A DNA stretch of 53,851 bases from a bacterium (lineage in GTDB: Bacteria; Patescibacteriota; Minisyncoccia; Phycocordibacterales; Phycocordibacteraceae). The stretch lies in NCBI GenBank assembly GCA_021802705.1, contig JAJZRL010000006.1, positions 1-53,851 of the forward strand, given 5' to 3'. Below, piece by piece: positions 1-37,178 of the stretch. Both the position numbers and the translations under genes were made by a program. Positions within the stretch are counted from its first letter, which is position 1, and each line of letters begins with the position of its first letter. The notes under the pieces were generated by a model that worked only from the letters and a program-made list of their open reading frames with translations, ran no database searches and was not told the origin of the DNA.

Positions 1-127
1 CTCACTCCTAGCCATCCTCATCACCGCAGCCGTCTCCTCCGGAGCGAACGCCCTTGCCACCCAGTCCTTCACCGAACCCTCCTCTCCTCCTCCGAACAAT
101 AACGCCGACGCTCCGCTTGACGTGAGC
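1..127 (+). repeat. 127-bp exact repeat, left copy
   Basis: Bases 1-127 are identical to 53630-53756. The repeat codes for the signal-peptide and proline/asparagine-rich linker of two paralogous secreted proteins. Immediately after it the copies diverge (gcgaact against tacaacg) but remain homologous at the protein level. Because the flanks differ, this is a true repeat and not the overlap of a circular contig. The length of 127 is also a common maximum k-mer size in de Bruijn assemblers, so the left contig end may be a graph branch point at this repeat. Confidence 0.95.
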
Positions 128-33665: not shown

Positions 33666-34625
33666 TTATACAACGCCGATAGCGCGACGGACTTGTTCCA
33701 TCTTCGCCTCGCTTACGACGCGGGCTTCTTGCATCCCTTCCCTAAGGATCTCTTCGACAGTATCCGGATTTTCCTGCAGCTCTTCGTATCTTGCTCGCAT
33801 CGGCGCGAGATAACGATCGAGATCCTCGACGAGGAACTCTTTGAGCATCTTGTAATTCCCTTCATACTCGGCATAGAGCTTTTCAAGCTCGTGTTCGCCC
33901 CGCACGAGCTTATGGATGGCATAGACGATCTCCGGCCGTTTCCCTGATGAGTCGGTTACGATACTCATGACGTTTTTCACAAGTTCGTCATGACTCGCGA
34001 AAAGCGGTATGACATTCCCGTAACTTTTGCTCATTTTTTGACCGTCGACGCCCGGGACAATGGCGACATCGGGCAGGATGTAGGGTTCGGGGAGCGTAAA
34101 GACTTGCGACTTGAAGATCCGGTTGAATTTCTCGGCAGTGTCGCGCGCATATTCGATGTGCTGTTTCTGGTCTTGACCGACCGGAACGATCTTCGCGTCG
34201 TAGAGCAAGATATCGGCCGCCATGAGCATCGGGTAATTGAAGGTGCCGACGCTTATCTCTTTGTTTTTCGCTTCGGCATCCTTGAAGGCGTGCGCCCGTT
34301 CAAGGTAAGGCATCGTGGTGAGAGTATCGAATATCCAGCAAAGCTCGGTATGAGCGGGGACGTCCGACTGCTTGAAAAGCACGATGTCCTCCGGATCGAG
34401 ACCGACGGCAAGGTACGCCATCGCAAGCTCGCGGGTACGGCGGCGCATCTCATCCGCATCATGTACGAAATTGAGGGCGTGGTAATCAGCGATGAAGATA
34501 AACGGACGACACTTCTTGGTTTTCGAGAGATCGACCAGCTGGCGCATCGCGCCGAAGTAATTGCCGATATGAAGATTGCCTGTCGGCTTTACGCCGGAGA
34601 CGAGGACGGGTTTCGTCGCGGTCAT
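33666..34625 (-). CDS. trpS: Tryptophanyl-tRNA synthetase
   Basis: Class I synthetase charging tRNA-Trp. The 319-residue protein has SGVKPTGNLHIGNYFGA (HIGH-type), the KMSKS loop GQKMSKSYGN, and PMLMAADILLYDAKIVPVGQDQKQHIE. Length is normal. The ATG at 34625 was chosen; TAGCAT on the minus strand (34633-34638) ends 7 nt upstream. A GTG two codons earlier is possible. Confidence 0.97.
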   Translation of the reverse strand: MTATKPVLVSGVKPTGNLHIGNYFGAMRQLVDLSKTKKCRPFIFIADYHALNFVHDADEMRRRTRELAMAYLAVGLDPEDIVLFKQSDVPAHTELCWIFDTLTTMPYLERAHAFKDAEAKNKEISVGTFNYPMLMAADILLYDAKIVPVGQDQKQHIEYARDTAEKFNRIFKSQVFTLPEPYILPDVAIVPGVDGQKMSKSYGNVIPLFASHDELVKNVMSIVTDSSGKRPEIVYAIHKLVRGEHELEKLYAEYEGNYKMLKEFLVEDLDRYLAPMRARYEELQENPDTVEEILREGMQEARVVSEAKMEQVRRAIGVV

Positions 34626-34663
34626 GTCCACTATGCTACCACGAAAGCTTGCGATATGCCGAT

Positions 34664-34692
34664 AAAAAAACTCCGCGCTTTAAGACGCGGAG
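34664..34692 (-). terminator. Rho-independent terminator
   Basis: CTCCGCG/CGCGGAG stem (34671-34677 with 34686-34692), 8-nt loop, then seven T on the minus strand (34664-34670). It terminates the 164-aa protein gene upstream of trpS. The stretch 34693-34751 shows nothing else. Confidence 0.93.
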
Positions 34693-34751
34693 CGAAATAA
34701 GGAGCGGAGCCCCTTAAGGAGGAAGACCTCTTTAATTTTACAGGTAAAGAA

Positions 34752-35246
34752 CTAAAAGCTAGTAGGGTTGTACACAACTACTCGACGCCTGTCATTGAGC
34801 TCCCCATCAACATATTCACTGCTCCAATACCAGTAGTTCCTGTCTTTATAGAGATACCGGACGGAAAGCTTTCCGAACAGATCCCGATATTCGGTTCCCC
34901 AGAAAAGAGGATAAATGGATTCCCATTCTTCTGGTATGAGGTGCTGATGGGCAAGAAGGAAATCAAGGACGTTAGCGTTCAAGGCAGGCATGTCCGCAAG
35001 TTCCGCGCGGATGATTCTGCCATGCGCTTCGCCTTTTTCTTTCTGACTCTTCGAAAGCCAAAGCGTTATCCTTGAGGGATCCCAGACGAGCTGCCCATTC
35101 TTTTTGTGGTTTTTGTACCCCACCCATCCTTCAGGGATGAAAGGTTCGGCATCGCAATCGATGATGTGAAGAGTGCGCTTGTTTTCAGCGACGTAGCCGG
35201 AGCTACGTTCGCTACCGTTCTCAACGTCAAACGTTGAATCATTCAT
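34752..35246 (-). CDS. CPR-type protein with FWGTEYR motif, unknown function
   Basis: A 164-residue protein. Its C-terminal half reads IPEEWESIYPLFWGTEYRD, then VRYLYKDRNYWYWSSEYVD, a Trp/Tyr-rich pattern I recognise from uncharacterised proteins common in Parcubacteria, where FWGT.YR is followed by VRYLYW and W.W...WLD. The N-terminal half is acidic and lacks a signal peptide. The ATG at 35246 has GGAGG at 7 nt (35254-35258). It has its own promoter, a 100-nt leader with a strong hairpin, and its own terminator. The frame is open upstream to 35621, but that includes the leader. No biochemical role is known. Confidence 0.75.
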   Translation of the reverse strand: MNDSTFDVENGSERSSGYVAENKRTLHIIDCDAEPFIPEGWVGYKNHKKNGQLVWDPSRITLWLSKSQKEKGEAHGRIIRAELADMPALNANVLDFLLAHQHLIPEEWESIYPLFWGTEYRDLFGKLSVRYLYKDRNYWYWSSEYVDGELNDRRRVVVYNPTSF

Positions 35247-35345
35247 CGGTATACCTCCAATGTCTGCCAGCGGGCTCCGGAGGACTTTCCCCGGTTTGCC
35301 GTAGCAAAAAATAGCCCGTTGCGAGCTGCTTTTTGCTACGGCAAC
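35247..35345 (-). promoter_or_regulatory. Structured 5' leader, candidate cis-regulatory RNA
   Basis: The predicted transcript starts near 35345. Almost at once it forms a perfect 15-bp hairpin (35344-35330 with 35310-35296) enclosing a 19-nt loop. After it, CCTCC (35279-35283 on the minus strand) can pair with the Shine-Dalgarno GGAGG (35254-35258), with about 20 nt between. This arrangement would allow switching of translation. Confidence 0.5.
35296..35344. repeat. Perfect 15-bp inverted repeat
   Basis: Arms 35296-35310 and 35330-35344 (TTGCCGTAGCAAAAA and its complement) flank a 19-nt loop. It lies at the 5' end of the leader of the 164-aa protein gene. Confidence 0.95.
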
Positions 35346-35351
35346 ACCGCT

Positions 35352-35380
35352 ATAATACCACACGCACCATTTCTTGCCAA
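35352..35380 (-). promoter_or_regulatory. Promoter of the FWGTEYR gene
   Basis: On the minus strand TTGGCA (35375-35380), 17-bp spacer, TATTAT (35352-35357): both hexamers match the consensus at five of six positions. The start of transcription is near 35345. Confidence 0.8.
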
Positions 35381-35470: not shown

Positions 35471-35653
35471 TCAGTGACGCAAGCGTTTCAGGTGCTTTAA
35501 AAACCTGCAGTCCGCGATTCCTGACGCCGCACAGTAGAGTGCGGCGAGCGAGTAGGCTGTCGTCGTCACCCACTCGCCTTGTAGCGAAGACAGGACGGCT
35601 AGGATGATGAAACTCACGCACAAAAACACACCAAGAAAGATTAATGGTCTCAC
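35471..35653 (-). CDS. Small two-helix membrane protein, unknown function
   Basis: A 60-residue protein with two predicted transmembrane helices (about residues 4-22 and 31-46) and a short Lys/Arg/His-rich tail (KHLKRLRH). The GTG start at 35653 is preceded at 7 nt by GAGGAGGT (AGGAGG at 35661-35666), the best Shine-Dalgarno site in the window. A near-consensus promoter lies about 85 bp upstream. The leader contains ACCTC able to pair with the Shine-Dalgarno. No family is recognised. The stretch 35381-35470 downstream holds no other gene. Confidence 0.7.
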   Translation of the reverse strand: MRPLIFLGVFLCVSFIILAVLSSLQGEWVTTTAYSLAALYCAASGIADCRFLKHLKRLRH

Positions 35654-35807: not shown

Positions 35808-35894
35808 TGGTGCGCCGGGAAGGATTTGAACCTTCGTAGGGCTATGCCCGACAGGTTTACAGCCTGTTGCGATTGACCACTCCGCCACCGACGC
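35808..35894 (-). tRNA. tRNA-Tyr (anticodon GTA)
   Basis: An 87-nt class II tRNA: acceptor GCGTCGG/CCGGCGC, anticodon stem ACAGG/CCTGT with loop CTGTAAA (anticodon GTA), a long variable arm, T arm AAGGTTCAAATCCTTC-like, and encoded CCA (35808-35810). It lies 30 bp downstream of tyrS on the same strand. A weak AAAGCC/GGCTTT hairpin (35774-35794) may end its transcript. Confidence 0.96.
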
Positions 35895-35905: not shown

Positions 35906-35933
35906 ACTATAGCGGATTTTCTATTTATTTCAA
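35906..35933 (-). promoter_or_regulatory. tRNA-Tyr promoter
   Basis: TTGAAA (35928-35933, inside the last codons of tyrS), 16-bp spacer, TATAGT (35906-35911), ending 11 nt before the tRNA. Confidence 0.65.
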
Positions 35934-37178
35934 AACGAGAATGAGAACGTTCTGTTTTCCTTTGCGTACGAGCGCGTAACCGTTCGAGAAATCTGCAAGT
36001 GAGAGCTTACGTTCGGGGTCCTCAATGCGCATCCCCGAGAGCGTGATCCCCTTCCCTTCCACGAGCCGCCGGGCTTCGCTTTTCGAGGCGGCAAATCCGC
36101 CCGCGATGAGCGCTTCGACAAGCGGGAACCCCTTCTCGATATCCTTTCCCGTGATGGTTACCGATGGCGCTTCGGCAAGAGCGATGCCGCGTGCTCCGAG
36201 CGGAAGTTCCGAGAACGGCGTCGTGCCGAACAGGGCGCCGCTTGCGGTAGCGGCCTGAGCAGCCGTTCTCGATCCGTGTACGGTTTCGGTTACGAGCCGC
36301 GCAAGTGTTTGTTGCGCTTCACGAGCGGCCTCGTTGCGGCGATGACGCTCCATAAGAGCGTCTATCTCGCTAAGCGGCAGGAACGTGTACACGTTAAGAT
36401 ATTTTTCGATACCGGCATCGGGAAGATTGACCCAGAATTGATAAAAACTGAAAGGGGATGTTTTTTTCGGATCAAGCCAGACGGCATTCCCTTCCGTTTT
36501 TCCGAATTTCTTGCCGGCTGCATCGGTCACAAGCGGCATGCCGAGCGCGTATACCTGCTTCCCGAGCCGCTTCCGGATGAGGTCGACGCCGGAAAGCATG
36601 TTTGTCCACTGGTCTGATCCTCCCACCTGAAGGTCGACGCCGTGCCGCTCGTTGAGCATCAGGTAATCGAAGCCTTGCAAGAGCGCGTATGTGAACTCGG
36701 TGTACGAGATGCTTTCGTCCGGTGTCTCGAGGCGTTTCTTGATAATCTCGCGCTTCATGAGGTCGTTCACCGTGAAGTACTTGCCGACCTCGCGCAGAAA
36801 CGGTATGAGCCTGGCGCGCATGAGCCAGTCGGCATTATCAACCATCTTAAACGGCGTGCGGCCGAGGATACCCTTTAGCTGCGCCTTCAGTGCGCGGGTG
36901 TTCTTTGCGACTGTCTTCGTATCGAGCATCGGACGTTCGCCCGTCTCCTTCGGATCGCCGATCATGCCGGTCGCTCCGCCGATGAGGAAGACGAGCTTAT
37001 TGCCCGCTTCGCCAAGCCGCTTCATGAGGAGCACCCACGCGAGATGCCCGACATGCAGCGAATCGGCGGTCGGATCCGTACCGATATAGACCGTCCGCGA
37101 TACCTGGAGTACCTTCTCCGGTTCGGCGGACGAGTGCTCGATCAGCCCGCGGGCCCTCAGTTCTTCAACAAGCGTCAT
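35925..37178 (-). CDS. tyrS: Tyrosyl-tRNA synthetase
   Basis: Class I synthetase charging tRNA-Tyr. The 417-residue protein has the HIGH-type motif DSLHVGHLAWV, the KMSKS-type KKFGKTEGNAVWL and DLQVGGSDQWTN, and ends in an S4 RNA-binding domain (about residues 345-415). It belongs to the TyrRS form with KFGKS motif. TATATT (37185-37190) ends 6 nt before the ATG. Its cognate tRNA-Tyr lies 30 bp downstream, with a promoter starting in the tyrS 3' end. Confidence 0.97.
   Translation of the reverse strand: MTLVEELRARGLIEHSSAEPEKVLQVSRTVYIGTDPTADSLHVGHLAWVLLMKRLGEAGNKLVFLIGGATGMIGDPKETGERPMLDTKTVAKNTRALKAQLKGILGRTPFKMVDNADWLMRARLIPFLREVGKYFTVNDLMKREIIKKRLETPDESISYTEFTYALLQGFDYLMLNERHGVDLQVGGSDQWTNMLSGVDLIRKRLGKQVYALGMPLVTDAAGKKFGKTEGNAVWLDPKKTSPFSFYQFWVNLPDAGIEKYLNVYTFLPLSEIDALMERHRRNEAAREAQQTLARLVTETVHGSRTAAQAATASGALFGTTPFSELPLGARGIALAEAPSVTITGKDIEKGFPLVEALIAGGFAASKSEARRLVEGKGITLSGMRIEDPERKLSLADFSNGYALVRKGKQNVLILVLK

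Follow-up and report, generated by a model that had tools for sequence, protein, structure and literature searches.

Known relatives of the locus

Among diversity-generating retroelements (DGRs), one clade (clade 2) is restricted to the Patescibacteria (Roux et al. 2021, PMC8144416), and the DGR targets of the CPR are mostly without recognisable domains (PMC8144416). The loci described here resemble the Patescibacteria cassettes of that study in having a C-terminal variable repeat, a template repeat 260-440 bp after the gene, a reverse transcriptase (RT) next in order, and A-specific differences between the repeats, whereas the genome from which our window comes has neither RT nor template repeat. 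Judging from the host group rather than from a tree, the loci presumably fall in clade 2. The text of the same study contains no mention of a hairpin, promoter or secondary structure, and none of a structured leader (PMC8144416). As far as the literature that we found shows, the control of DGR target gene expression has hardly been studied.

Like the element reported here, the DGR target-site hairpin or cruciform (Guo et al. 2011, PMC3240598) is formed by an inverted repeat of a DGR target. However, it is a short DNA stem with a GRNA loop just 3' of the variable repeat, whereas our hairpin, P1, is a long RNA hairpin in a 5' leader. The riboswitches and autoregulated leaders of Rfam 15 share with it the 5' UTR position, covarying structure and possible alternative pairing. 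The boxA leaders of rRNA operons and phage nut sites share a boxA-like RGYWCYTTWA soon after the promoter, followed by a hairpin; unlike them, the family described here (R1, as matched by the covariance model CM R1) precedes protein genes, its copy in the window has no boxA, and its binding of Nus is putative. No published description of the leader was found in the open-access literature or in Rfam. As such, the RNA family appears to be new, structured mRNA leaders and DGRs both being already known.

A structured leader RNA before an orphan DGR-type target gene

The window, the whole stretch of 53,851 nucleotides that was analysed (contig JAJZRL010000006.1), contains the following features of interest, all on the minus strand.

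35352..35380 (-): promoter, -35 TTGGCA, 17 nt, extended TG, -10 TATTAT (consensus scan)
35247..35346 (-): leader RNA (5' UTR), about 100 nt; CM R1 core match at 35349-35262
35296..35344 (-): P1 hairpin, 16 bp + 6 bp, conserved core CRUAGC...RAAAG / ...GCUAYG (MFE fold and covariation)
35298..35300 (-): S2 (GGC), in the 3' arm of the P1 base, with S3 as alternative partner (GRC/GYC pairing, predicted alternative fold)
35277..35294 (-): P2 hairpin, CCGGGG-AAAGTC-CTCCGG (MFE fold)
35265..35275 (-): S3 and conserved tail, GCCCGCTGGCA (conserved across leaders as GYCCNCTRGCA)
35254..35258 (-): Shine-Dalgarno sequence (SD), GGAGG (from the sequence)
34752..35246 (-): gene of 164 aa (P0001), orphan DGR-type target protein of the FWGT family, ATG at 35246-35244 (homologues with template repeats)
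34670..34693 (-): intrinsic terminator, GC hairpin and T run, likely transcript end (sequence scan)

A first-pass annotation made from the sequence had proposed a near-consensus promoter followed by a leader of about 100 nt that opens with a perfect 15-bp hairpin. The promoter is there, and P1, which starts almost directly after it, proved slightly better than claimed, with 16 uninterrupted pairs followed by one mismatch and six further pairs. Over a 109-nt stretch, the leader has a folding energy of -50.5 kcal/mol, compared with -30.5 +/- 3.6 in shuffled sequences (z -5.5), and none of 200 shuffles equalled it. At gathering score, Rfam 15 detects only tRNAs in the window, and at E <= 1 the leader returned only chance-like matches, the best of them sub-threshold at 25.4 bits against a cut-off of 50 bits. 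Just upstream of the leader are an ORF for a membrane-like product of 60 aa, preceded by a good SD (35471-35653, -), and a tRNA gene (35811-35894, -), and the gene beyond that tRNA (35925-37178) resembles tyrosyl-tRNA synthetase, judged by motifs. Judged in the same way, the gene downstream of the target gene (33666-34631) resembles tryptophanyl-tRNA synthetase.

P1 covaries and pairs as RNA

CM R1 was built from 14 leaders of FWGT-family genes only, the window copy being one of them. It matches the window leader with 66.5 bits (E 6.5e-19) on the mRNA strand versus 38.6 bits on the opposite strand, and sense scores lie well above antisense scores in nearly all strong leaders. Three leaders of the window genome that were not in the seed score 48-51 bits. 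The window leader is a member of the R1 family.

Compensatory changes are spread over most of P1. In 65 leaders, which are kin, so that the counts are not independent, 92.7% of cells are paired, both-sided changes occur at 18 of 23 pairs, and the covariation score is 0.556 compared with 0.217 for shuffled alignments and about 0.11 in slid controls. The seed alignment of 14 leaders by itself has both-sided changes at 13 of 22 pairs, and the window leader and its nearest relative (L006) differ by four compensated pairs. At two positions of P1 the commonest pair is G.U (47/65 and 45/65), while A.C is found there only twice and once, respectively. That G.U is favoured on the mRNA strand and its mirror image A.C is almost absent indicates that P1 pairs in the mRNA rather than in DNA. 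The window leader is an evolutionarily conserved, structured RNA at the start of the mRNA. The first-pass annotation had proposed such an RNA, and had named homologues without a leader, or conservation without compensatory changes, as evidence that would speak against it; most homologues of P0001 have the same leader arrangement upstream, and the pairs of P1 are maintained by compensation.

Among draft genomes of the class, R1 matches were found in 79 of 383, and leaders of other target families were recovered despite the FWGT-only seed. In a phylum-wide sample outside the class, seven more genomes had matches; three of these were read as lying before DGR-type targets, and one was taken for a chance hairpin. 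No recognisable P1 precedes about half of the FWGT-type targets, so not all DGR targets depend on it. Two candidates, L098:621 and L139, were set aside as probable chance hairpins, having neither a boxA nor a DGR gene. Searches of viral contigs with P0001 and two exact leader patterns, the latter being insensitive, returned matching stretches without a full leader, giving no sign of a viral origin.

Most genes behind the leader are linked to DGR targets

Proteins linked by similarity to DGR targets are encoded behind 78 of the 83 leader loci examined. The remaining five consist of one leader directly before an RT fragment, one before a gene with a variable-repeat-like C-terminus, one, in the window genome, before a gene that looks decayed, one at a contig end and one probable chance hairpin. 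At the threshold used, the first 70 residues of the leader-linked genes form 21 clusters, the largest with 52 members. When 285 genomes of the class were searched with a profile, short second copies of only the C-terminal 40 residues turned up, a few hundred bp beyond the full-length gene on its downstream side. In the 31 leader loci with such a downstream copy, 517 of 557 mismatches fall at an A of the template and only 7 at an A of the target gene. Mismatches concentrated at template A are the hallmark of DGRs, which identifies the short downstream copies as template repeats.

Next in order after the template repeats come DGR reverse transcriptases with the motif GLPLGNLTSQ. An RT lies 1407-1753 bp downstream on the same strand at 26 of 90 leader sites, and in the mirror controls, the upstream side and the opposite strand were free of RTs for 4 kb at all 90 sites; at the level of genomes, leader and RT are associated with p = 1e-6. 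In the genus and order of the window, four more leaders stand about 1.5 kb before an RT (G002, G005, G026 and G051). The first-pass annotation had missed this link, and from the window copy it could not have known of the boxA-like element that many members of the family have before the hairpin. At one locus (L072, G408:C14), the leader is followed by a truncated DGR-type RT with the target gene missing between them, perhaps through a deletion.

Homologues of P0001 share the pattern FWGTxYRD...VRCLYW...W.W....L...W....PAAV.AS. Pfam and NCBIfam returned nothing useful for P0001 and two other target-like proteins of the window genome, PHROGs gave no convincing match for P0001 or one homologue, and searching PDB sequences with the profile of the family was likewise unproductive. 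The predicted structure of P0001 (pLDDT 63) has mostly C-type lectins among its best VIA matches (Z up to 4.9) and also matches the nanoarchaeal variable protein 5ioo (Z 2.2), while Foldseek found no significant match to it. These model comparisons weakly suggest a C-type-lectin-like fold.

The window copy is an orphan

The window genome (G000; 644,803 bases, 98.4% complete) has no match to a DGR reverse transcriptase by either RVT_1 or A3, and RVT_1 finds the RTs of these DGR loci at 1e-25. A template repeat for the window gene, i.e., a second copy of its C-terminus, was not found anywhere in the genome. With neither RT nor template repeat, the window gene is an orphan. No RT was seen in the genome of L006, which is only 84% complete. 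Between the window gene and L006, codon differences are concentrated at third positions (19, 24 and 49 of 90 in the middle part), and P0001 therefore still looks under selection. On balance, and as part of the whole explanation given below, we favour the window gene and its boxA-less leader being a fixed copy that is still constrained after loss of the retroelement.

Including the window copy, the genome has four leaders. The others are at L082 (G000:C2:16535-16617:-) and L083 (G000:C5:162738-162822:- and 163595-163688:-). Each has a boxA-like sequence; two precede intact DGR-target-like genes and one a decayed-looking gene.

Elements flanking P1 and a possible strand exchange

A promoter of the form TTGAC-17..20-TRNNWT is found shortly upstream of about half of the homologous leaders. 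A boxA-like motif (scan pattern RGYWCHTTW) is present in 31 of 82 leaders versus 1.4 in shuffled sequences, and follows 16 of 48 leader promoters versus none of 28 other promoters at the same loci; it is often followed in turn by ACTTGC, 5' of P1. The leaders of the window and of L006 are missing the boxA-like part. The 16S leaders of the window genome and of G254 carry a similar boxA-like CCTTTGAAAA.

Downstream of P1, the first-pass annotation had described two segments as constrained. This holds for the tail, AGCCCGCTGGCAGAC, which is conserved across leaders with the consensus GYCCNCTRGCA. The other segment, CCGGGGAAAGTCC, is the P2 hairpin, in which the sequence is free and only the pairing is preserved, as seen in L006 (CTGAAATGATTTCAG) and in other class A leaders.

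The 3' arm of P1 contains S2 (GACUGCC or GGC), which is complementary to S3 (GGUGGUC or GCC) further downstream. In class A leaders, including that of the window, this GGC/GCC pairing encloses P2. Between the S2 GRC and the S3 GYC, 93% of cells are paired; 28 leaders have A-U and 23 have G-C. S2:S3 pairing reaches 76.9% versus 69.0% for shuffled sequences, with none of 500 shuffles as good; both-sided changes occur at four of seven pairs, by which measure S2:S3 is not better than shuffles. The letters of S1, S2 and S3 covary as Y-R-Y (U-A-U in 31, C-G-C in 29 and mixed in 16), a signal that partly tracks the two leader classes. Holding S1 open in the fold model lets S2:S3 form, in most leaders, beside a P1 that is shortened; this state is about 10 kcal/mol more costly, and a factor would need to pay for it. 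The complementarity suggests strand exchange and a possible switch, on evidence weaker than that for P1. No U run of the terminator type was found after the alternative helix. A further pairing spotted by eye, between ACTTGC and the RGCA tail, was dropped, both partners being too invariant to judge.

Interpretation and alternatives

The explanation that we judge best, and moderately probable, is an undescribed family of structured mRNA leaders before DGR target genes of Patescibacteria, the tiny symbiotic bacteria also called CPR; these leaders would provide shared co-transcriptional control in cis, with an orphaned, boxA-less and still constrained member in the window. The leader would put all DGR targets of a cell under one expression control, and a shared trans factor, probably of the host, would read it; since leaders occur in genomes without any RT, this factor would not be the DGR RT. 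Probably, boxA and P1 would act on the nascent transcript through Nus-type antitermination, pausing or RNase III-type processing. The base of P1 would then exchange S1:S2 for S2:S3 and switch state, which would limit production of the hypervariable proteins to defined conditions; at the window locus, gene and leader would have been retained after loss of the retroelement. Only tentatively do we propose a dedicated class of Patescibacteria RNA switch that outlives the retroelement and in which strand exchange at the P1 base couples expression of the diversified proteins to a cellular or host-contact signal.

That P1 is simply a 5' hairpin for mRNA stability, or an RNase III processing site, with no switching, would suit its length, which at about 22 pairs amounts to roughly two helical turns, and its position close to the transcript start. 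A boxA with a processing stem is also the layout of rRNA leaders, and the 16S leaders of G000 and G254 have a boxA-like sequence. This reading by itself leaves the conserved GYCCNCTRGCA tail and the S2:S3 covariation unexplained, and we consider it unlikely, if still worth keeping in mind. A role in retrohoming, with the leader recruiting the RT or marking the target for cDNA integration, fits the narrowly defined position that it takes up at the 5' end of DGR cassettes. However, leaders are retained in RT-less genomes, including the window genome with four copies, and lie about 500 nt away from the variable repeat, while Bordetella phage BPP-1 needs no sequences upstream of the variable repeat and its required hairpin is 3' of that repeat (PMC3240598). 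The persistence of leaders without an RT and the dispensability of the upstream sequences in BPP-1 make such a use quite improbable.

The first-pass annotation had likened the layout to a riboswitch or a protein-autoregulated leader, with a CCTCC able to pair with the SD. Both CCTCC and GGAGG are present in the window, yet the sequestration is not conserved, a 5-nt anti-SD occurring in 8 of 75 homologous leaders versus 8.6 expected. With downstream genes that are DGR targets and not metabolic, and with the alternative helix followed by no U run of the kind seen in terminators, a metabolite riboswitch acting by SD sequestration is very improbable. A DNA-level palindrome, serving as operator or cruciform, would account for the long inverted repeat with its conserved CATAGC/GCTATG, and covariation by itself is compatible with it; the strand asymmetry, with about 70% of leaders having G.U at two positions of the mRNA strand and A.C almost absent there, leaves it hardly any probability. 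Least credible to us is hitch-hiking, in which a functionless leader is carried along in the upstream DNA as target genes duplicate: genomes do hold multiple leader copies, but compensatory changes occur throughout, even between the two RT-less genomes of the window and L006.

As control by a common leader RNA, the favoured explanation would offer a first handle on how CPR DGR targets are controlled, and a regulatory element open to direct test in bacteria for which few regulators are known. The leader also serves as a tag that finds target genes by their 5' end, including orphans without an RT, and its persistence without an RT suggests that control outlasts the mutator.

Other recurrent hairpins near the Shine-Dalgarno sequence

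A second recurrent hairpin, GCAACACGTTCGCAAGAACACGTTGC, lies just 5' of the SD of FWGT-type targets in L010, L016, L017, L018, L019, L022, L024 and L025, including members without P1 (L017 and L022). Small hairpins (e.g., GGGCAAATTAGCCC and CCGGCATAGCGCCGG) are also found directly 5' of the SD in L077, L089, L090, L092, L104, L106, L112 and L117.
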